This document shows, piece after piece, positions 11,279-28,401 of a DNA stretch of 38,761 nucleotides. Both the position numbers and the translations under genes were made by a program. Source of the stretch: Gammaproteobacteria bacterium (GTDB lineage Bacteria > Pseudomonadota > Gammaproteobacteria > SZUA-152); NCBI GenBank assembly GCA_011371455.1, contig DRQN01000173.1, positions 1 to 38,761 of the forward strand, in the 5' to 3' direction. The notes beneath the pieces are model-generated. The model searched no databases and was not told where the DNA came from. It saw only the letters and a list, made by a program, of their open reading frames with translations. Positions within the stretch are counted from its first letter, which is position 1. Every line of letters starts with the position of its first letter.

Positions 11279-11550
11279 CAGCGCTCGCCCCCTTCCGGCG
11301 CATCCTCTTCCGGCGGCCAGTAGTCGATGATGCCAACGATCGTGAAATCGCTCGGGTACTCTTTGCTACCCGCAGCCTCGCGGGCAGCGGAACTGCCGAC
11401 ACAGATCACCCAGTCGCCAGGCGCGCAGCCGACACTATCGACGGCTACCAGGAGCGCACTACCATCACGCACCACCTGCAGGTGCTTGTGCTCGAGGGTC
11501 TGGATGCGATTGGTCGACACCAGAGGACTGACAACCTGGCAAATCTTCAT
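11278..11550 (-). CDS. csoS4A: Carboxysome vertex protein CsoS4A (BMV/pentamer)
   Basis: MKICQVVSPLVSTNRIQTLEHKHLQVVRDGSALLVAVDSVGCAPGDWVICVGSSAAREAAG. Coupled to csoSCA. Confidence 0.9.
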   Translation of the reverse strand: MKICQVVSPLVSTNRIQTLEHKHLQVVRDGSALLVAVDSVGCAPGDWVICVGSSAAREAAGSKEYPSDFTIVGIIDYWPPEEDAPEGGER

Positions 11551-13091
11551 CCGTGGACTTCCTGTGCGCCGACCGAACAGGCCAACACCTCGATGCGTCC
11601 GCCGGCGTTACAGTCGCGAACCACCTGCAAGGTATGCAGCAAGCCTTTCTCGGCGAGCTTTGCATAGCGCGAGGTCAAGGCATCCGTCACACGGGCGCAA
11701 CGTTTGATCGCTCGCTCACGCGCGCCCGGCACCTGGCCGTGGTAGTCATAACGCACCACCACCGGGATGGGCAGGCCATGCGCGACATTGAGTTTGGAAA
11801 AAATACTCACCCCGACATCGAGATCCTGTGCAGCCTCTTCAACGGTGTCGAGGTAGGCGAAATACGTCAGGTTGCGTAGCTGCACTTCCTCAAAACCAAT
11901 CCCGGCCCCGATGAAACGTTCGGCGTGGCCGATATCCTCATAATGTTCGCCGTGGAAAGCGCGTACATAATCGATCTGCGAAAAATTGTTGGCAATCAGC
12001 CGGGTAACCAGTTTCGCCATACCCGGGGCAACGTTATCGGTCGTCGCGTCGACGAGTTCTCTGATGCGTGCCTCCGCCTCGTAAGCCGACAGGCGCAAGG
12101 TCTCCTTGCGGATTTCACCGGCATCGAGGTAACGCTCGAGCGCAATATCGCCGCTGCCATCCGGCACATGCACGCGAATCACGTCGGTATCCGTATCCAG
12201 TCCTATCAACAACAGGTCAATGGAGGCGCCACAGCAAAAACTGTTTTCCACCGCCTGGCGGAAAGCATACAGCTGACCGAGCGCACCCTGGGCCGCAAGG
12301 GTCGCATCGGAGCCGTGCGCGGCACAGCCCTGATTGTCAGGATCGCCCGAACTGTAGTGATAGACAGCCACCTTGAGGTAGCGCGTCGGCAGGCCGGAGT
12401 CATCGGGCCGGCCTTGGCGAAGCCGCAGCATCTCGGTCTCCACCCACTTCTGGATACTGTCATCGACGTCGAACATGGCACCCGCATAAGACTTGCGGCG
12501 CACGGCCCGGTAGGGCAGCCGCAATACATAGCGGATCACATGCGCCAACCGCCCATCAGCACAGGGAGACACGTCCAGGGTGTGGAACCCACAGTCCTGA
12601 AGAAAACGGCGAAATGCCTGTTCTTCCTCCACAGAACCCAGCGGGGTCTCGGTGAAAAACTCGTCGCAAAAACGCCGGTACGTCTCGAACAGGCACCAGG
12701 CAAATAAACGGCGCATATCGAGCTGGTTCACCCAGGCATCTTCCAGGATCTCCTCAGGAAGACCAAAGCCCAGCTGTTCGCGCGCAATGGCTTGCGCCCG
12801 CACCTCGAAATCCTCTTCGTGCTGCAACGCCGAGATCCTTTTCAGAACCGGGACAATGGCATCGAAAGAGGCCTTGACGCTGCGCTCATAATCAAACAGC
12901 TGCTGATTTTCATCGACGCGCGTCAATGCATGGGTTTCATGCCTGCCCTGCATCTGCGCGACAGCCGGGCGCGCGGCACCAAACGCGCCTCGCCTGAACG
13001 AGTCGGCCTGGCTGCTGGGCTTCTTGCCCAGGGGCGCCGCTGTCTGCGACCAGCAGAGCGAGCGTGGGTGATTGCGACGTGAACTCAACAT
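11547..13091 (-). CDS. csoSCA: Carboxysomal carbonic anhydrase CsoSCA (CsoS3)
   Basis: 514 aa with basic, disordered N-terminus. Cys/His-containing VAVYHYSSGDPDNQGCAAHGSDATLAAQGALGQLYAFRQAVENSFCCGASIDLLLIGLDTDTDVIRVH is typical of CsoSCA. Confidence 0.9.
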   Translation of the reverse strand: MLSSRRNHPRSLCWSQTAAPLGKKPSSQADSFRRGAFGAARPAVAQMQGRHETHALTRVDENQQLFDYERSVKASFDAIVPVLKRISALQHEEDFEVRAQAIAREQLGFGLPEEILEDAWVNQLDMRRLFAWCLFETYRRFCDEFFTETPLGSVEEEQAFRRFLQDCGFHTLDVSPCADGRLAHVIRYVLRLPYRAVRRKSYAGAMFDVDDSIQKWVETEMLRLRQGRPDDSGLPTRYLKVAVYHYSSGDPDNQGCAAHGSDATLAAQGALGQLYAFRQAVENSFCCGASIDLLLIGLDTDTDVIRVHVPDGSGDIALERYLDAGEIRKETLRLSAYEAEARIRELVDATTDNVAPGMAKLVTRLIANNFSQIDYVRAFHGEHYEDIGHAERFIGAGIGFEEVQLRNLTYFAYLDTVEEAAQDLDVGVSIFSKLNVAHGLPIPVVVRYDYHGQVPGARERAIKRCARVTDALTSRYAKLAEKGLLHTLQVVRDCNAGGRIEVLACSVGAQEVHG

Positions 13092-13109
13092 TACGACTTA
13101 TAATCGGGG

Positions 13110-15545
13110 TCAGCCCCGCGCGCCCCCCGAGTAAGTCACCAGAGAACCTTTTTCGCTATTCCCACTGCCACCCGTCACTTTACTGACAGGCTCACTCACT
13201 GCTTCATTTCTCTTGCTCGGCGGGGCTGAGGCGATAGTGCTGCCGCGGCGGGTTGGATTACGCCGCATGGCGGATCTGCCTTCAGTACCGGTAACAAGGT
13301 CGCCGGTATCCCAGTCATTACCCGTGATCCTCGAGTCACCGATGCCTTCGCCGCTGATACGGGACTTCACGCGTCCTTCAACGCTGGCCGCCGTCTCCGG
13401 CAGCGGCGATTCTGCGCGCGCCGAACGGCCGGAACGAAATTCTTCCGTACCCGTCACCTTGCCCGTCGCCATACCGAATGGCCCGGTGATCTGGCCCTGG
13501 GCATAACGGGTTCCCGTCACGCCCGCCGGAGTGTCTTGCGTGGCCTGGGCAGCCATATTGGCAACACTGAACTGGCCCCAAGGCGCATCTCCACCCAGCG
13601 ACTGTGGAAAATCCGGGCTGGCGGGCTCCGCAGCAGTCGCCGCACAGGCATTCGCATACTGGTCGGCGCCGATATAGGGCGTCCCCGTCAATGGCTCACA
13701 GTCGCCCTTCTCGGTCCCGGTCACTTTCCCGCCGATGCCAGGCTGCTGGCCGGTCATCACGGCGCCAGCGGCGCCCTTTTGCACCGAGGTACGCGCTGCA
13801 GCCACGGTGGATGCCTCCGGCTTGCAATAATCGTAGTATTGCTCAGCCCCCGCATAGCCAGTACCGGTAATCGCCTTGCAGGTACCGGGCTCGTCGCCCG
13901 TGACCTTGCCGGAACGTCCGGTCATGGTGCCCGTCACCAGCTTACCGCTAAATGTCTGCGAAACGCCCACCTTGGCGTCCTGCGGCTCCGGTACGCTGGC
14001 ACAAAAATCACGGTACTGTTCCCCGCCGACGTAGTCGTCACCGCTGATGATGCGACAGGTGCCAGGCTCGTCACCGGTAACCCGCTCGCTGCGCCCGACC
14101 ATGGTGCCGGTCACGGAACCACCGCGCAGGGTATTGGTAGTGCCGACCTTGGCCGGCGCCTGACCCTCACCCGCCCGCATATATTGGCTGCCGGTCAATT
14201 CACGCTCAGCACCGGCTTCGTCACCCGTCACCTTGGGCGAACGACCTACCTCGTTGCCGGTCACCGGCTGACCCTTGCGGGTTTCGGTACGCGCCACCTT
14301 GGCCGGAGCAGGGACCGGAGCAGACTCAGGGCGATTGCCGCAGAAGGTCTCTGCATGCCCTGCCCCCAGGTACTCAACGCCCGTCACCTGCTGGCAGCTG
14401 CCCGGCTCATCACCGGTCACATGGTGACTGCGACCCAGCTCATTGCCGGTCACCGGGTTGCCGCGGAGGGTAGCGCTCAGCCTCACCTTGGGCGCCATTT
14501 TATTGGGCTCGGACTGGCAGAACTCACGAAAAATATCCGCACCCATATAGTCGGTGCCCGTCACGTCACGACAGGTACTGGGCTCATCGCCCGTGGTCTT
14601 GTGGCTGCGACCCACCATGGTGCCGGTGATCGTCTGGCCGTGGCTGGTTTCGCCCGCGCCCACTTTCCATGGCGCATCCTGTGCCGCGCCGACAGCGGGA
14701 TTCTTCGGCGGCCGAATGCGGCCACAAGGGGAACTCTTTTTCTGGCAGGTTTTGCCCTGGCGGCTACGTTGCGCACGCAGCGCCTGAGCCAGTTCACGGC
14801 CGGAAACAAGAGGATTCGCCGCACGCACGGTCTGTGCGGCGCTCATGCTGCTGGCGCTCACACCCGCCTTGCCACGGGCAGACATCGCCTGCCGGCGCGC
14901 CAGCGCAATCACGCGACTATTGTTTGCGGCACTGGCCTGTACCGTGGCACGCTTCTTTACTTGGCGTTGCGGTTTACGCGGTTTGCTGCCAGTCGCCGGC
15001 GCCTCGGCGACTCCGCCGCCCTTGCAACCACAACCACAATCTGCGGGGGAAGTCTCCGCCCCCACGCCCGCGCCCGTCATCGTTTTTTCTCTGGATTCTG
15101 GGCCGCGCACCCGGTCACGACTGCTCACGCCGCCCTTTCCATGAGTCGACATTGCCCGTCGACGAGCGATCACCACGGCACGACTGCCGCTCACGCCGAC
15201 GCCGGCAGCGGAAGCCCTTCCGCCAGCAGCAACAGCCGTCGAGCGCCTGGCCGACACAACTCGTGCATCTTCTTTCCGCGCAGGCGTCGCCGCTGCGGCT
15301 GGGCTCGGCGGCACCCGTACACGGTCGTGACTACTCACGCTGCGCTTGCCACCCTCGGACATTGCCCGGCGACGAGCCACGGAGGCGGCACGCCCTGTTG
15401 CATTCGCAGAATTTGAGCGGGCGGCAGGCGTCGCGGAAACCGCATTATCGTTGGCTGCCGCCTTGCCGCCACGGCTCAAGGCTTGCCGCCTGGCGAGTGC
15501 GGCCTGACGCCCGCCGCTGCTGTTGTTGCTGACAGTCTGTGCCAT
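13110..15545 (-). CDS. csoS2: Carboxysome assembly scaffold CsoS2
   Basis: N-terminal ARRxAMSxxGKxxV repeats and six M-type VTGxxxGRSxxVTGDEPGxC...TGxxYxGA repeats. Start chosen at MAQTVSNNSSGGRQAALARRQALS. Confidence 0.93.
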   Translation of the reverse strand: MAQTVSNNSSGGRQAALARRQALSRGGKAAANDNAVSATPAARSNSANATGRAASVARRRAMSEGGKRSVSSHDRVRVPPSPAAAATPARKEDARVVSARRSTAVAAGGRASAAGVGVSGSRAVVIARRRAMSTHGKGGVSSRDRVRGPESREKTMTGAGVGAETSPADCGCGCKGGGVAEAPATGSKPRKPQRQVKKRATVQASAANNSRVIALARRQAMSARGKAGVSASSMSAAQTVRAANPLVSGRELAQALRAQRSRQGKTCQKKSSPCGRIRPPKNPAVGAAQDAPWKVGAGETSHGQTITGTMVGRSHKTTGDEPSTCRDVTGTDYMGADIFREFCQSEPNKMAPKVRLSATLRGNPVTGNELGRSHHVTGDEPGSCQQVTGVEYLGAGHAETFCGNRPESAPVPAPAKVARTETRKGQPVTGNEVGRSPKVTGDEAGAERELTGSQYMRAGEGQAPAKVGTTNTLRGGSVTGTMVGRSERVTGDEPGTCRIISGDDYVGGEQYRDFCASVPEPQDAKVGVSQTFSGKLVTGTMTGRSGKVTGDEPGTCKAITGTGYAGAEQYYDYCKPEASTVAAARTSVQKGAAGAVMTGQQPGIGGKVTGTEKGDCEPLTGTPYIGADQYANACAATAAEPASPDFPQSLGGDAPWGQFSVANMAAQATQDTPAGVTGTRYAQGQITGPFGMATGKVTGTEEFRSGRSARAESPLPETAASVEGRVKSRISGEGIGDSRITGNDWDTGDLVTGTEGRSAMRRNPTRRGSTIASAPPSKRNEAVSEPVSKVTGGSGNSEKGSLVTYSGGARG
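13773..13779 (-). promoter_or_regulatory. Candidate -1 programmed ribosomal frameshift slippery heptamer A AAG GGC in csoS2
   Basis: Minus-strand AAAGGGC in exact X XXY YYZ phase with the csoS2 frame. The -1 frame stops at TGA 13698-13696. Confidence 0.6.
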
Positions 15546-15590
15546 CGTAAACCCCGTCACGTTGTTTGCTGGATTCGAACCTTGTCAGCA

Positions 15591-15612
15591 GTTGCCCCGG
15601 AACCGGGGCAAC
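15591..15612 (-). promoter_or_regulatory. Strong intercistronic hairpin between cbbS and csoS2
   Basis: GTTGCCCCGG-AA-CCGGGGCAAC, perfect 10-bp arms with 2-nt centre. Confidence 0.7.
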
Positions 15613-15625
15613 CACCATAGAGCCC

Positions 15626-15970
15626 CTAGCCGCGACCCTCGTAGACCACAAAACAGACACCCTGACTCTGGGTGTAGGTATCGTAGCCGAGCAAACGGAC
15701 ATGGTGATCCGGGTAGGCGCGACGACAAGCCTCCAGCTCATCAAGCACTCGATCGAGGCTCGTTTCACCGAAAAACGGCAGCTTCCACATCGTCCAATAG
15801 TGATTGAATGCACGGCTTGGGTGCTCGTGCTCAATGGACGGGGTCCAGCCCTGCGCAATGATGTAGTTTATCTGCGCCTCAACTTCTTGCTGAGTCAGCT
15901 TGGGCAGGAAACCGAAAGTCTCCAGCGTGGGGACGGTCTGGTAGTCACCCATTTCATGCGTGCCAGTCAT
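15626..15970 (-). CDS. cbbS: RuBisCO small subunit, form I
   Basis: YQTVPTLETFGFLPKLTQQEVEAQINYIIAQGWTPSIEHEHPSRAFNHYWTMWKLPFFGE. Confidence 0.96.
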   Translation of the reverse strand: MTGTHEMGDYQTVPTLETFGFLPKLTQQEVEAQINYIIAQGWTPSIEHEHPSRAFNHYWTMWKLPFFGETSLDRVLDELEACRRAYPDHHVRLLGYDTYTQSQGVCFVVYEGRG

Positions 15971-16017
15971 AATAATTTCCTCATATTTGATTTAGCTTCG
16001 GGTTCGCCAACAGCTGT

Positions 16018-17430
16018 TTACTTGACATCCAGCTTGTCGATGGTATCGAACTCGAACTTGATCTCTTTCCAGGTCTCCATTGCGATGGCCAGCTCCGGGC
16101 TGTGGCGGGCGGCCTCGGTGAGAATTTCCTTCGCCTCACGCTCAAGCTCACGACCCTCATTGCGCGCCTTGACGCAGGCTTCCAGTGCAACACGGTTTGC
16201 AGCGGCGCCCGCAGCATTGCCCCACGGGTGACCCTGGGTTCCGCCACCGAACTGGAATACCGCGTCGTCGCCAAAGATGGAGAGCAGGGCGGGCATGTGC
16301 CAGACGTGGATACCGCCAGAGGCGACCGCGAAGACACCCGGCATCGAGCCCCAATCCTGGTCGAAGAAGATACCGCGCGAGCGGTCTTCGGGAACGAACG
16401 ATTCGCGCAACTGATCGACGAAGCCCAGCGTCGCATTGCGATCGCCTTCGAGCTTGCCCACCACGGTACCCGTGTGCAGATGGTCGCCGCCGGAAAGACG
16501 CAGGCACTTGGCCAGCACGCGGAAATGGATGCCATGTTTCGGATGACGGTCGATAACGCCATGCATGGCACGGTGAATGTGCAGCAGCATGCCGTTTTCG
16601 CGGCACCACTTTGCCAGACCCGTATTGGCAGTGAAGCCAGCCGTCAGGAAGTCGTGCATGATGATCGGCTGCCCCAGCTCCTTGGCGAACTCGGCACGCG
16701 CATACATTTGCTCGGGGTCAGCGGCGGTGACGTTCAGGTAGTGACCCTTGCGCTCACCGGTCTCTTCCTGGGACTTGAGGACAGCCTCGGCCACGAACTC
16801 GAAACGGTTCTGCCAACGCATGAAGGGCTGACTGTTGACGTTCTCGTCATCCTTGGTGAAGTCCAGGCCGCCACGCAGGCATTCGTACACCGCGCGACCG
16901 TAGTTCTTTGCCGACAGACCCAGCTTGGGCTTGATGGTGGCGCCCAGCAGCGGACGGCCATACTTGTTCAGCTTGTCACGCTCCACCTGAATACCGCTCG
17001 GCGGCCCCATGCAAGTCTTGATATAGGCGATCGGGAAGCGAATGTCTTCCAGGCGCAAATGCCTGAGCGCCTTGAAGCCGAAGACGTTACCCACCAGCGA
17101 GGTCAACACATTGACCACTGAGCCCTCTTCGAACAGGTCGATGGGATACGCAATGAAGACGTAGAAGGCCTCCGGATCACCCGGCACATCTTCGATGCGG
17201 TAGGCGCGACCTTTGTAATACTCGAGGTCGGTCAGATATTCAGACCAGACAGTACTCCAGGTACCCGTTGACGACTCGGCGGCCACGGCAGCAGCCACTT
17301 CCTCATTGGGCACGCCCGGCTGGCCGGTGACCTTGAAGCAGGCCAGCAGGTCAGTATCGAGCGGAACGTAATCTGGGGTCCAGTACTTTTCGCGGTACTC
17401 TTTCACGCCCGCTTGGTAAGTATTGCTCAT
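16018..17430 (-). CDS. cbbL: RuBisCO large subunit, form I (carboxysomal type)
   Basis: [52 protein letters not shown] gagaggg upstream of ATG. Confidence 0.98.
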
Positions 17431-21545: not shown

Positions 21546-21845
21546 TGCCCGGTGGCTGAGGGTTTCGACGGATTCGCAGGAGTGGGCGGCACGAAACACG
21601 TCACTGCCAGCGATGCGGGATGACGAAGCCGGCGCCAGACTCTACAATCCGGCCACGGCAATGATCCCGGAGCAACGCGAATGGATCTGCGCCAACGAGC
21701 GGCAGAGTGATGCGCCGGTGCCGGCCCGGGCGGCATGCAAGCACCCGGAGCGGGGCGCCCCGCGCAAAACCCGATGGCGGAACGATTAGAGAACGCCCTA
21801 CGCGAAGAAGGGCGACACGAGAGAAACAACGAGGGAGAAAACGAC

Positions 21846-23066
21846 ATGGCGCTGGTTAACATGCGTGACATGCTGCACCACGCGTATGAGAACAACTATG
21901 CGGTGGGCGCCTTTGACCTGGTCAGCCTGGACTTTCTCGAGGCCGTCGTCGACGCCGCCGAGACGTCCCGCGCGCCGGTGATCCTCAGCGTGGCCGAGCA
22001 CCACTTCGCCCATTACGACCTGGAACTCATGATGCCGGCGGTGGAAGCGGCCGCCAAGCGCGCCTCCGTGCCCATCGCCATCCAGCTCGACCACGCCAGC
22101 TCCCTCGAATCCGCCCGCCGCGCCATCAACCTGGGCTGCAACGGTATCACCCTCTGCTCCGCCAACCGCGAACTGCCCGACAACATCAAACTGAGCAAAG
22201 ACATCGCCGCCATGGCGCACAGCTGCAACGTGCCGGTGGTCGGCGAAGTCGGCTACGTGGGCTCGGCCAACGACGAAGACGTCTCGGCCCTGACCCTGCC
22301 CGTCGAGGCCAAGACCTACGTCGAACGCAGCGGGGTCGATTTTCTGTCCGTCTCCATCGGCACCGTGCAGGGACGGTCCAAGGGCCGCATCAAGCTCGAC
22401 TTCCAACGCCTGAAACAGATCCACACCGCCGTCGACATCCCCCTGGTTCTGCACGGTGGCAGCGGCCTCAACGAAGAGCAATACCGCCGCCTCAGCACGC
22501 TGGGCGTAGCCAAGATCAACTACTTCACCGGGCTTTCCGAAGTGGCGGCGAAGACCATGCGCGCACAGGTCAAGGCCGACCGCGAAGGCAGCTTCATCGA
22601 TTTGAAAAAGGGCGTCAAAGAGGCCATCTGCACCGAGGTGAAGCGCTGCCTGCGCCTGTGGGGCAGCGCCGGACGCGCCGCCGAGGTACTGACCCAGTGC
22701 GAACCCTGGGCGCCGGTCGAGCATCTGATCATCTACAACGTCATCGACCGCATGAGCGACGAGCAGGCCCAATCGATGATCGCCAAAGGCCGGCAGATCC
22801 TCGCCAACATCCCCGGCGTGCGCGAAGTCTTCACCGGCGAAGCCGTCAAGCAAAACGCCAAATACCGCTTCTGCTGGCTGGTGCGTTTCGCCCACAAGGC
22901 CGTGATCGACAGCTATCGCGACCATCCCGACCACGTCCGCTTCGCCGACACCCTGTTCCGCCCCTACGCCGGCGACCGCATCAGCATCGACTACCAGGAC
23001 TGCTCCGTCACCCACGGCGTGACCCTGCCGGGCAGCGTGTCGGGCGGGGTGAAAAAACGCGCCTAG
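21846..23066 (+). CDS. Class II fructose-bisphosphate aldolase family protein fused to a C-terminal Dabb domain
   Basis: Aldolase: MALVNMRDMLHHAYENNYAVGAF, AIQLDHASS, VGEVGYVG, LHGGSGL. Dabb-like C-terminus: VEHLIIYNVIDRMSDEQAQSMIAKGRQILANIPGVREVFTGEAV...YRDHPDHVRFADTLFRP. Confidence 0.82.
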   Translation: MALVNMRDMLHHAYENNYAVGAFDLVSLDFLEAVVDAAETSRAPVILSVAEHHFAHYDLELMMPAVEAAAKRASVPIAIQLDHASSLESARRAINLGCNGITLCSANRELPDNIKLSKDIAAMAHSCNVPVVGEVGYVGSANDEDVSALTLPVEAKTYVERSGVDFLSVSIGTVQGRSKGRIKLDFQRLKQIHTAVDIPLVLHGGSGLNEEQYRRLSTLGVAKINYFTGLSEVAAKTMRAQVKADREGSFIDLKKGVKEAICTEVKRCLRLWGSAGRAAEVLTQCEPWAPVEHLIIYNVIDRMSDEQAQSMIAKGRQILANIPGVREVFTGEAVKQNAKYRFCWLVRFAHKAVIDSYRDHPDHVRFADTLFRPYAGDRISIDYQDCSVTHGVTLPGSVSGGVKKRA

Positions 23067-24073: not shown

Positions 24074-24094
24074 TGCAAAGACAAGGAGAGAGCC

Positions 24095-24658
24095 GTGCCC
24101 AACAAGAAAAGCGCCAGCGTCCAGCGAGCCAGTACCGAAGCCGGCCCCGGTGGCGAGGAAAGCGTCGACAAGATCCGTGACATCATCTTCGGCAGCCAGA
24201 TGCGCGACTACGAGCGCAAATTCTCGCAACTGGAAGAGCGGATCATGAAGGAGGTGAGCCGGCTGCGCGAGGAGCAGGAAAAGCGCCTGGCCGCCCTCGA
24301 ACAGTCCATCGACCGTGAGCTGGAATCCCTGCTAGAACGCCTCAGCGGCGAGCACGATGACCGCCTGGCCGCGGAGCAGGATCTCGCCGAGGCCCTGGCG
24401 GGGCTGGGCGAAGACCTGAAGCAGACGGCCGGCGACTTACGACAGCAGATCGAGCAGCAGTCCCGCGCCCTTGGCGAGGAGATCGGCGCCCGCCAGGCGG
24501 AAGCCGGCGACCAGCTGGCGCGCGAAACCGGCAGCCTGCGCGAACAAAAGGTCGACCGCAGCGACCTTTCCGCCCTGTTCAACGAGCTGGCCATGCGCAT
24601 CGCCGGCGATGCGCCGCAGACCGGCGGCTCCCCACCAGAAGGCAACGGGAAGGCCTGA
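24095..24658 (+). CDS. Coiled-coil protein, first gene of the OmpA/GTPase/HD-GYP operon
   Basis: 187 aa, heptad-rich (ERKFSQLEERIMKEVSRLREEQEKRLAALEQSIDRELESLLERL). Confidence 0.72.
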   Translation: MPNKKSASVQRASTEAGPGGEESVDKIRDIIFGSQMRDYERKFSQLEERIMKEVSRLREEQEKRLAALEQSIDRELESLLERLSGEHDDRLAAEQDLAEALAGLGEDLKQTAGDLRQQIEQQSRALGEEIGARQAEAGDQLARETGSLREQKVDRSDLSALFNELAMRIAGDAPQTGGSPPEGNGKA

Positions 24659-24659
24659 G

Positions 24660-26420
24660 GTGGCCGCCGACAAGCCTGTCGCCCCCGGGGCGGATGGCGA
24701 AGACGACGACCTCGGCACCCTGCGGCGCCTGCTGCTGCGTCCGGAGCAGCGCCGCATCGAGGAGCTGGGCGAGCGCCTGGAGAACCCGGCGCTGCGCGCC
24801 CGCGACGTCAGCCGGGTGCTGCCCGAGGCCCTGCGCCTCAGCGCAAAAGACGGCCATGCCCTGGGTGATGCCCTGACCCCCACCATCGAAACCATCATCC
24901 ACACCTCCGTGCGCCGCGACAGCCGCCGCTTCGCCGATGCCCTGTTTCCGGTCATCGGCCCCGCCATCCGCAAGGCCATGGCCGAGGCCCTGCGCCAGAT
25001 GCTGCAGAACCTCAGCGAGGCGCTGGAGCACAGTTTCTCCCGCCGCGGCCTGGCCTGGCGCTTCGAGGCCTGGCGCAGCGGCCGCCCCTTCGCCGAGGTG
25101 GTGTTGCTGCACAGCCTGGAATTCCGCGTCGAACAGGTGTTTCTCATCCACCGCGAAAGCAGCGTGCTGTTGCAGCACCTCAGCGCCGGCAACGTGGCCT
25201 GTGAGGATGCCGGTCTGGTCTCGGCCATGCTCACTGCCATCCAGGACTTCGTCCGCGACTCCTTCGCCGTGGCCGATGGCCAGACCCTCGACAGCATTCA
25301 GATGGGCGACCTCACGGTGTGGGTGGAACAGGGTCCGGAGGCGGTCATCGCCGGCGCCATCCGCGGCAACGCCCCACAGGCGCTGCGCGGCGTGTTCCGC
25401 GAGGCCCTGGAGACCCTCCACCAGCAACAGGCCGAGGCCCTGAGCGGCTTCACCGGCGATCCGGCGGCCTTCGAGACGGACGAGGTACGGCAAACCCTGC
25501 AGCAATGCCTGCAGGCCCGTTACCGCGACCCCCCCCGGCGCATCTCGCCGCTGCTGCTGATACCGTTGCTGGCCCTGCTCGCCGGCGGCGGCTATTGGGC
25601 CTATACCGGCCTGCGCGAGCGGCAGGCCTTCGAGGCCTACCTGCAGGCCCTGGACCAGGCACCGGGCATCGTGGTGACCCGCGCCGGGGCCGCTGGCGAC
25701 GGCTATCGCGTGCAGGGCCTGCGCGATCCACTGGCGGCCGAACCCCTGTCGCTGCTCGACACCCAGGGGCCGCTGGACCCGCAGCGCCTCGATCTCCACT
25801 TCGAGCCCTACCAGGCCCTCGCCCCGCCCTTCGTGCTGAGCCGCGCCCGGCAGCTGCTGCAACCACCGGCGACGGTGAGCCTGACGCTGGACGGCGGGGT
25901 GCTGCGCCTCGACGGCCAGGCCCCGGGCCACTGGATCACCGAGGCACGACGCCTTGCCCTGGCCCTGCCCGGCGTGGACTCGGTCGACGCCAGCGGCCTG
26001 CGAGACCCGGCCGGCGATGAACTGCACGCCTTGCAGACGGCGCTGGGCGGGCAGGTAATCCTTTTCGACGTCGACACCGCCCGTGGCGAAGCCGACGCAC
26101 AGACCCTGCAACGCCTGGCCCGCGACCTGCGCCGCCTGGACGCCCTGGCGCGACAGCAGGGACAACGGGCAAGGGTGGTACTGGTGGGCCACAGCGATGC
26201 CACGGGCAGCGCAGCGCACAACCTCATGCTCAGCCGCCAGCGTGCCGAATGGCTGCGTGAGCAGCTGCTTGCCCGCGGCGTCGATCCCGCCCTGCTCACA
26301 CTGCGCGCCGCCGGCAGCAGCGAGCCGGTGAGCACGCAAGACACCCCGGCGGGGCGGGCGCAAAACCGCAGCGTGACCCTGGAGATTAAACGAATGCCGA
26401 GAGAAGAAGCGGGCGCATGA
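24660..26420 (+). CDS. Trans-envelope protein with cytoplasmic N-terminal domain, one TM segment and C-terminal OmpA-like domain
   Basis: GTG start just after the upstream stop. TM ISPLLLIPLLALLAGGGYWAYTGL. C-terminus VVLVGHSDATGSAAHNLMLSRQRAEWLREQLLARGVDPALLTLRAAGSSEP...GRAQNRSVTLEI. Confidence 0.8.
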   Translation: MAADKPVAPGADGEDDDLGTLRRLLLRPEQRRIEELGERLENPALRARDVSRVLPEALRLSAKDGHALGDALTPTIETIIHTSVRRDSRRFADALFPVIGPAIRKAMAEALRQMLQNLSEALEHSFSRRGLAWRFEAWRSGRPFAEVVLLHSLEFRVEQVFLIHRESSVLLQHLSAGNVACEDAGLVSAMLTAIQDFVRDSFAVADGQTLDSIQMGDLTVWVEQGPEAVIAGAIRGNAPQALRGVFREALETLHQQQAEALSGFTGDPAAFETDEVRQTLQQCLQARYRDPPRRISPLLLIPLLALLAGGGYWAYTGLRERQAFEAYLQALDQAPGIVVTRAGAAGDGYRVQGLRDPLAAEPLSLLDTQGPLDPQRLDLHFEPYQALAPPFVLSRARQLLQPPATVSLTLDGGVLRLDGQAPGHWITEARRLALALPGVDSVDASGLRDPAGDELHALQTALGGQVILFDVDTARGEADAQTLQRLARDLRRLDALARQQGQRARVVLVGHSDATGSAAHNLMLSRQRAEWLREQLLARGVDPALLTLRAAGSSEPVSTQDTPAGRAQNRSVTLEIKRMPREEAGA

Positions 26421-26914
26421 TACGCAAGAAGATCTGCATGCTGGGCGCCTTCGCGGTGGGCAAGACCTCATTGGTGGAGCGTTTCGTCAAAAGCCTGTTC
26501 AACGCGCGCTACCAGACCTCACTGGGGGTCAAGATCGACAAGAAGCCACTGGCCATCGATGGCCGGCTGCTGGAACTGATCCTGTGGGATCTGGCCGGCG
26601 AGGACGAATTCGTCAGCCTGCGTCTGCCCTACCTGCGCGGTGCCGCCGGCCTGCTGCTGGTGGTGGACGGTACCCGCCCGGAGACACTGGACACGGCCCT
26701 CGCCCTGCGCGACAAGGCCCTCGCCGAGATCGGCGAGGTACCCTTCGCCTTCCTCATCAACAAGGCCGATCTGACCGAGGGCTGGCTCATCGACCCGCGT
26801 GATATCGACCGCCTGGTGGCGCGCGGCTGGACGGTGCTGGAGACCAGCGCCAAGACCGGCCGCGGCGTGGAAGAGGCCTTCATCGCCCTGGGCAAAGAGA
26901 TGCTGGACGAATGA
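26417..26914 (+). CDS. Small Ras-like GTPase
   Basis: G1 GAFAVGKTSL, G3 WDLAGEDEF, G4 NKAD, G5 ETSAKT; 165 aa; ATGA overlap with upstream gene. Confidence 0.88.
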   Translation: MIRKKICMLGAFAVGKTSLVERFVKSLFNARYQTSLGVKIDKKPLAIDGRLLELILWDLAGEDEFVSLRLPYLRGAAGLLLVVDGTRPETLDTALALRDKALAEIGEVPFAFLINKADLTEGWLIDPRDIDRLVARGWTVLETSAKTGRGVEEAFIALGKEMLDE

Positions 26915-28401
26915 TCGATGAACTGCCAGCGGCGGTGGGCGGCGCCCTGCTCGAACTCACCCTGCGGCAGGATGCCAGCGCCTGGCTGCAGATCGGCAAG
27001 GACGGCGTCCTCAATGACATGGGCGGCGATCTGGAGCACTTCGGCCTCAGGGGCCTGGTGCCGGGCGAGGCGGCGGCGGAACAACTGCTGTTTCTTGCCG
27101 GCATGCTGCCCCTGGGCGACACCTCGCTGACCCTGGCGGCAGTGGAACTCGGCCTGGACCGCCATGCCGACATCCACCTTCTGCCCGAAGAGCGCCGCGA
27201 CTGGGTGGTGTTGATCGACCGCAGCAACAGCCTCTACTGGCGCGCCCAGGCGCAGCAGAAGGCCAATGAACTCAATCTGCTGCGCCGCCGCCTGCTGCGC
27301 CTGGAGTCCACCCCGCCGCAAACCTCGCCAGCCGCGCCGGGGATGGCGGCGCCCATGCTCTGCAACGCCCTCGACATGGCGGTGCTGGAGCGGCAGACGG
27401 ACGGCAGTTTCCAGCTGGTGGGCACACCGCCGGCGGGATTCGAGGTACTGCTGGCCGAGGCCGGGCAGACGGGCGGACGCCTCTACCCGCAACGTGAGTT
27501 TCCCTTTCTGGAAAACTTCATCGCCGAGGCCGAAGCCGTCTGGGACCATGCCGCGAAACCGCAGCGCTCCGGGCCCTGGGTGGAGACGGACGCCCGCGGC
27601 GGTGAGCATGCCCTGGAGGCCATCGCCGTGCGCTGGAACGGGCGCCGCCTGCTCATCATCGAACTGCTGGGCGAGCGCTACGAGGCGCAGCGCGTTTTTT
27701 TGCAGATGGGGCGCGAGAATGCCCTGCTGAGGAATTTTCTGGAAACGCAGGTGCACCGGCGCACCGCGGACATCCGGGCCCGCGAAGAGGAGATCGCCCT
27801 GCGCCTGGTGTGGGCGGCGGAATCCCGCGACGATGGCGAGACCGGTGCGCACATCCGCCGCATCGGCCTCTACAGCGAGGCCCTGGCCAGCGCCATCGGC
27901 TGGGAGCGCAGCCGCATCGACGACATCCGCATCGCCGCCACCATGCACGATATCGGCAAGATCGGCATCCCCGACGTGGTGCTGCGCAAACCGGGCCCGC
28001 TCAGCGCCGAGGAATTCGCCATCATGAAGACCCACCCGGTGATCGGCGGACGCATCCTTGCCGGCTCCAAGAGCCCCATGCTGCAGATGGCCAAGGATAT
28101 CGCCCTCAGCCATCACGAGAAGTGGGACGGCAGCGGCTACCCCTACGGCCTCAAGGGCGAGGCCATCCCCATGGCCTCGCGCATCGTCGCCCTGGCCGAC
28201 GTGTTCGACGCCCTGGTGCACGAGCGGGTCTACAAGCCCGGCATGTCGGCCGACGCGGCCGTGGAGATCATGACCCTGAACCGGGGCCGCCAGTTCGACC
28301 CCAATCTGTTCGATGAATTCGTGCGCCAGCGCCAGCGCTTCGAACACATTGCCCAGGAGCAGTCGGTGATGCTGTTCGAGGGCTTTCGCGGCAATCCCTG
28401 A
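26911..28401 (+). CDS. HD-GYP domain protein (putative c-di-GMP phosphodiesterase)
   Basis: MHDIGKIGIPD and HHEKWDGSGYPYGLKGEAIPMASRIVALADVFDAL; ATGA overlap with the GTPase gene. Confidence 0.88.
   Translation: MIDELPAAVGGALLELTLRQDASAWLQIGKDGVLNDMGGDLEHFGLRGLVPGEAAAEQLLFLAGMLPLGDTSLTLAAVELGLDRHADIHLLPEERRDWVVLIDRSNSLYWRAQAQQKANELNLLRRRLLRLESTPPQTSPAAPGMAAPMLCNALDMAVLERQTDGSFQLVGTPPAGFEVLLAEAGQTGGRLYPQREFPFLENFIAEAEAVWDHAAKPQRSGPWVETDARGGEHALEAIAVRWNGRRLLIIELLGERYEAQRVFLQMGRENALLRNFLETQVHRRTADIRAREEEIALRLVWAAESRDDGETGAHIRRIGLYSEALASAIGWERSRIDDIRIAATMHDIGKIGIPDVVLRKPGPLSAEEFAIMKTHPVIGGRILAGSKSPMLQMAKDIALSHHEKWDGSGYPYGLKGEAIPMASRIVALADVFDALVHERVYKPGMSADAAVEIMTLNRGRQFDPNLFDEFVRQRQRFEHIAQEQSVMLFEGFRGNP

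Follow-up and report, generated by a model that had tools for sequence, protein, structure and literature searches.

The gene neighbourhood of the Group 1 Rup GTPases was defined, by prediction, by Wuichet and Søgaard-Andersen in 2014 (PMC4316618). As set out in the main text of that paper, it consists of a cytoplasmic coiled-coil protein, a protein with a conserved unknown domain that is often followed by a transmembrane (TM) helix and an OmpA domain, a GTPase devoid of the glutamine of the G3 motif, and an output protein with an invariant N-terminal glutamine. The neighbourhood was reported from gamma-proteobacteria, cyanobacteria and others, and the typical outputs given in the main text are GGDEF/EAL fusions or histidine kinases. 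Its authors proposed that the glutamine is supplied to Rup in trans, drew an analogy with the actinobacterial conservon (Cvn), and described the Rup GTPases as having G motifs like those of the eukaryotic Ras superfamily and as proposed kin of the ancestors of the eukaryotic proteins (PMC4316618). The main text gives the unknown domain no fold and predicts that Rup and MglB homologues do not interact. A search of the open-access literature found no experimental studies of any Rup protein, and the system is known from prediction.

A four-gene operon and the systems closest to it

The window analysed here, a gammaproteobacterial contig of 38,761 nucleotides, carries four close-packed genes on the + strand, which encode a coiled-coil protein, a protein with a TM segment and an OmpA domain (the scaffold), a Ras-like GTPase and an HD-GYP protein (Table 1). 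Gene 2 starts one base past the stop of gene 1 (TGA-G-GTG). A scan for promoters and terminators gave no signal above chance. The open reading frames and junctions proved to be as described in an earlier sequence-only reading of the window, and the domains recognised there (coiled coil, OmpA, Ras-like GTPase and HD-GYP) were confirmed, with matches to Pfam OmpA, Ras and HD_5. Its claim that no described system has this composition was wrong, because a paper of 2014 had already set out the Group 1 Rup neighbourhood with its four components (PMC4316618).

Table 1. Features of the operon (positions in the window).
Feature	Position	Strand	Remarks
Shine-Dalgarno-like AAGGAG of gene 1	24083..24088	+	direct sequence reading
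Gene 1	24095..24658	+	GTG 24095 to TGA 24656-24658; 187-aa cytoplasmic coiled-coil protein
Gene 2	24660..26420	+	GTG 24660-24662 to stop 26418-26420; 586-aa scaffold
Gene 2, helical region (residues 14-140)	24699..25079	+	predicted, AlphaFold2 model
Gene 2, predicted longin/roadblock-like domain (residues 144-256)	25089..25427	+	AlphaFold2; Foldseek
Gene 2, single TM segment (residues 295-313)	25542..25598	+	hydropathy
Gene 2, OmpA-like domain (residues 487-570)	26118..26369	+	Pfam PF00691, 1e-12; motif GHSD...LSRQRA
Gene 3	26417..26914	+	165-aa Rup-type Ras-like GTPase; start within ATGA 26417-26420
Gene 4	26911..28401	+	496-aa output protein; start within ATGA 26911-26914
Gene 4, PAS-like module 1 ('on', residues 21-133)	26971..27309	+	AlphaFold2 model; invariant Q116, codon 27256-27258
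Gene 4, PAS-like module 2 ('mid', residues 147-290)	27349..27780	+	AlphaFold2 model; invariant Q265, codon 27703-27705
Gene 4, HD-GYP domain (residues 313-466)	27847..28308	+	Pfam HD_5, 5e-35

The product of gene 3 matches the Pfam Ras family (2e-26), contains the G1, G3, G4 and G5 motifs, and has Glu62 (DLAGE; codon 26600-26602) at the position of Ras Gln61. A glutamine in G3 is found in none of 100 relatives of this GTPase, and 72 of them carry a glutamate. Judged by its sequence, the protein fits the description of Rup and not that of MglA. The operon is like the Group 1 Rup neighbourhood in all four components, as it contains a GTPase that lacks the G3 glutamine, a coiled-coil neighbour, a protein with the domain–TM–OmpA arrangement and a glutamine-bearing output. 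It matches the published description of a Group 1 Rup system, with an HD-GYP output where the typical outputs in the main text of the paper are GGDEF/EAL proteins or histidine kinases.

Other systems resemble parts of the operon. The comparison with MglA, made in the sequence-only reading, turned out to be loose. Both systems have a prokaryotic Ras-like GTPase, and the roadblock fold of MglB resembles that predicted for the scaffold domain, but the latter is not a Pfam Robl_LC7 domain and is tethered to the envelope, and the operon has no Pfam Roadblock (MglB-type) gene. Membership in the MglA/MglB family of systems was rejected, as there is no adjacent Robl_LC7 (PF03259) gene and no Robl match in gene 2; the sole PF03259 gene of the genome lies away from the operon, on contig C166 (G000:C166:2553-2783). 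The conservon is likewise a conserved operon of a small GTPase and signal-transduction proteins, but a membrane histidine kinase and an MglB take the places that the OmpA scaffold and the exchangeable PAS-like output have here. The Zorya proteins ZorA (coiled coil) and ZorB (OmpA) give weak profile matches that extend to the coiled coil and OmpA only. Zorya was rejected, as there is no MotA-like membrane protein (gene 1 has no TM segment by hydropathy) and a GTPase and an HD-GYP protein are present instead.

The surroundings of the operon contain a tRNA-Arg gene, upstream and on the opposite strand, and a gene for a class II fructose-bisphosphate aldolase that has a Dabb (stress responsive A/B barrel) domain fused to its C-terminus (21735-23066, + strand). 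Further upstream (11547-17430, - strand) are alpha-carboxysome genes for the CsoSCA carbonic anhydrase, CsoS2 and the RuBisCO large subunit, and the organism is therefore probably an autotroph.

Gene order and co-occurrence

Among 57 relatives searched, true homologues of the N-terminal domain of gene 2 were found in four genomes that share the genus or family of the window and in two that belong to other families. The four close relatives have all four genes in the same order. The two distant ones have the first three genes in order, and in place of the fourth is a gene for a histidine kinase-response regulator in which the N-terminal module of the output is retained. When GTDB genomes were scanned with an alignment of the domain, at least 408 relatives came up, of which the 80 best-scoring ones, not a random sample, were analysed. 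These 80 come from the Cyanobacteria, Nitrospirota, Acidobacteriota, Desulfobacterota, Chloroflexota, Verrucomicrobiota, Myxococcota, Latescibacterota and Gammaproteobacteria. Cultured, non-pathogenic carriers include a Nostoc strain and Desulfospira joergensenii (locus L113). No close relatives were found in viral contigs.

Pooling the best 80 with a sample of the class gave 104 loci, many of them from cyanobacteria and Nitrospira. In 96 of the 104, the scaffold gene directly follows the coiled-coil gene, and in 96, likewise, it is directly followed by the GTPase gene; three of the misses are contig ends in either case. The gap between scaffold and GTPase is 20 nt or shorter in 87 of 96 loci, and that between GTPase and output in 75 of 95. 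Synteny over 104 loci and such short gaps indicate that the arrangement of the genes is not due to chance. As judged from these sequences, a three-gene core recurs across many phyla while the outputs are swapped between HD-GYP, histidine kinase, sigma-54 activator and nucleotide cyclase proteins. Two loci (L195 and L196) contain a diverged system that has no recognisable coiled-coil gene and an ATPase-type fourth gene devoid of detectable PAS-like modules.

The class sample consists of 275 evenly sampled genomes. The scaffold domain is present in 25 of them, 24 of which also have the GTPase family (E 5e-25 or better), and the two genes are adjacent in 22 genomes. None of the other 250 genomes has a protein in the score range of the GTPase family (best match, 3e-22). 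GTPase and scaffold thus co-occur almost perfectly in the 275 genomes, and this quantification is new. The co-conservation that the sequence-only reading had put forward as its check was borne out by the synteny and by this co-occurrence.

The coiled-coil protein and the predicted fold of the scaffold domain

The coiled-coil protein is conserved at its two ends, with the patterns DKIRDI(L)FG..R..F..LE in residues 25–50 and K152..DR..L158 (78 aligned sequences). The scaffold consists of a cytoplasmic N-terminal domain, a single TM segment, a periplasmic region and an OmpA-like C-terminus. Positive charges precede the TM segment (RYRDPPRR), which should place the 290 residues at the N-terminus in the cytoplasm. 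Asp513 and Arg528 of the OmpA-like domain have a 15-residue spacing, which we take to be that of the peptidoglycan-binding pair of OmpA. An OmpA domain is found in 46 of 57 scaffold relatives and is absent from the remaining 11, and wall binding is hence not universal. In one family of the class, the scaffolds are 885–974 residues long (L036, 4085-7009; L181; L183), and their N-terminal helical part matches gene 2 repeatedly; the periplasmic repeat of the L036 scaffold also matches gene 2 more than once.

The N-terminal domain of gene 2 matches no Pfam family, and a PDB sequence search with its profile gave no credible match. An AlphaFold2 model computed from a 58-sequence alignment has a mean pLDDT of 80. 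In this model, residues 144–256 follow the order helix-strand-strand-helix-strand-strand-strand-helix, which is the order of the Roadblock/longin fold. A Foldseek search of the PDB with the domain gave 15 matches at E 1e-3 or better. The best is the Mon1-Ccz1 complex bound to Ypt7 (3.6e-5), AP sigma subunits and TRAPP are also among the leaders, and MglB (1j3w, 3t12) appears at about 2e-3. Judging by their descriptions, all 50 PDB matches listed are presumably longin/roadblock proteins, and we take most of these 50 to belong to complexes with a small GTPase as their binding partner or regulatory target. The longin/roadblock fold is that of GTPase regulators such as Mon1-Ccz1, TRAPP and MglB, of which Mon1-Ccz1 and TRAPP are Rab exchange factors. 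These two rank at the top of the fold comparison with the modelled scaffold domain but have no detectable sequence similarity to it, and an hhalign comparison of the domain with 17 Roadblock (Robl_LC7) proteins scored 12.8, within the range of controls with shuffled columns. With a negative profile comparison and a positive fold match, the longin assignment, drawn from a single predicted model, is a claim about fold, not homology. The cytoplasmic domain of gene 2 is thus predicted to have a longin/roadblock fold, which is new with respect to the 2014 description. Encoded beside a GTPase, such a predicted regulator fold would be expected of the exchange factor, GTPase-activating protein (GAP) or platform of that GTPase.

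The presence of MglB among the fold matches would also fit a role in polarity or localisation similar to that of MglA/MglB. The wall-bound scaffold would then mark a site on the envelope to which Rup recruits the output, and the output would be placed locally and not switched in its activity. The coiled-coil partner and the anchoring domain of 46 of the 57 scaffolds are in line with such a role. We nevertheless hold it to be distinctly improbable, as the GTPase fits Rup and not MglA, and its tight linkage to the N-terminal regulatory module of many enzymes favours allosteric control.

Output modules and the proposed relay

In gene 4, two PAS-like modules precede the HD-GYP domain, whose catalytic motifs (HDIGKIGIPD and HHEKWDGSGYP) are intact. 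The N-terminus matches no Pfam family. In an AlphaFold2 model (mean pLDDT 88), its 290 residues fold into two PAS-like domains that both lead into a long helix. Foldseek picks out tandem-PAS proteins, among them PpsR, DosP and FixL. Gln116 is the sole invariant column of module 1 (39 aligned sequences), and module 2 has invariant Ser, Gln and Leu columns (31 sequences), with Gln265 being the glutamine. Each glutamine follows the last strand of its own domain by 13 residues in the model (103 to 116 and 252 to 265). A comparison of the two module profiles aligned them over their full length but with an E value of 0.058 and a probability of 0.9%. As this does not establish homology, the claim is limited to a common predicted fold and a common position of the glutamine. 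The predicted structure of two PAS-like modules, with a second invariant glutamine, is an addition to the 2014 description.

The modules occur in several contexts. They are separate in cyanobacteria, where module 1 is encoded by a gene of its own (about 133 residues) and module 2 is fused to a histidine kinase-like ATPase. At one locus (L061), the partner of module 1 is a nucleotide cyclase and that of module 2 is HD-GYP, in two neighbouring genes. Of 100 GTPase genes, 95 precede an output with one or both modules, and for four the following gene has no detectable PAS-like module. Among 70 scanned outputs, which were chosen by hand so that the counts are not frequencies, 33 contain HATPase_c, 16 HD_5, 11 a sigma-54 activator and seven a nucleotide cyclase domain. 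In the gammaproteobacterial loci, the outputs were HD-GYP proteins or histidine kinases. Two orphan pairs of GTPase and output have no scaffold gene nearby (L197, L198). They tie the GTPase to the output and suggest two submodules, a scaffold pair and a switch–output pair.

Two side observations concern the outputs. One genome (G144) has, in addition to a full operon with a kinase, a second, orphan GTPase–output pair with HD-GYP. In six gammaproteobacterial loci (L180, L182, L187, L193, L199 and L200), GGDEF-like proteins, identified by motif search only, adjoin the operon or a GTPase–output pair, which suggests paired synthesis and hydrolysis of c-di-GMP.

That the genes form a conserved cluster whose members do not signal to one another is very improbable. 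Searches of the open-access literature turned up no functional test that links them, which fits such a cluster, but the near-perfect co-occurrence, the near-zero gaps, the orphan pairs and the existence of both fused and split modules argue for a connection.

On balance, we consider it somewhat more probable than not that the Group 1 Rup operon constitutes a path from a wall-anchored scaffold through Rup and the PAS-like modules to c-di-GMP. The scaffold would span the inner membrane, probably hold peptidoglycan with its OmpA domain, and assemble with the coiled-coil protein on the cytoplasmic side. Its predicted longin/roadblock domain would bind Rup and set its nucleotide state as an exchange factor, a GAP or a platform. 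Rup would then act on gene 4 at its two PAS-like modules, the invariant glutamines of which may stand in for the catalytic one absent from Rup, and the signalling helices would switch the HD-GYP domain and, with it, c-di-GMP hydrolysis, the predicted activity. The comparison contributes to this scheme the composition, synteny, co-occurrence, missing G3 glutamine, invariant output glutamine and modular outputs, and the models contribute the predicted longin and PAS folds; to these, the scheme adds interactions, a direction of information flow and a stimulus that we infer. The sequence-only reading had proposed an envelope scaffold, a GTPase switch and a c-di-GMP output as a co-inherited unit. 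Synteny, co-occurrence and the predicted folds support that unit, and the OmpA domain suggests that gene 2 may sense the cell wall.

The invariant glutamine could alternatively have a structural role. Information could also flow in the opposite direction, with the PAS-like modules sensing a cytoplasmic or redox cue and acting through their glutamine as the GAP of Rup; Rup and the wall-bound scaffold would then be downstream and set position or assembly, with HD-GYP as a parallel output. The invariant glutamine is in the output and not in Rup, and the PAS fold usually senses, both of which agree with this reversal. The catalytic domains (HD-GYP, kinase, cyclase and sigma-54 activator), however, are C-terminal to the modules, the usual place of a regulated effector, and the glutamine is in the helix past the PAS core, a usual place of signal transmission. 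The reverse direction is rather unlikely.

With flow from the wall to the output, the operon can tentatively be generalised, in a reading to which we give a little less than even weight, to a trans-envelope receptor of many phyla. A longin/roadblock-fold regulator of a Rab-like GTPase would relay the state of the wall to exchangeable outputs (c-di-GMP, phosphorylation, cyclase and transcription), and the PAS-like modules would complete the GTPase active site with their glutamine. If true, bacteria would possess a G-protein relay of the longin–Rab type, not recognised as such in the main text of the 2014 description. If the scaffold domain is truly a longin/roadblock regulator, the pairing of a Rab-like GTPase with a longin regulator would serve bacteria of different phyla in signalling at the envelope, and named domains and residues would make it possible to test directly how Rup is regulated and which proteins read it.
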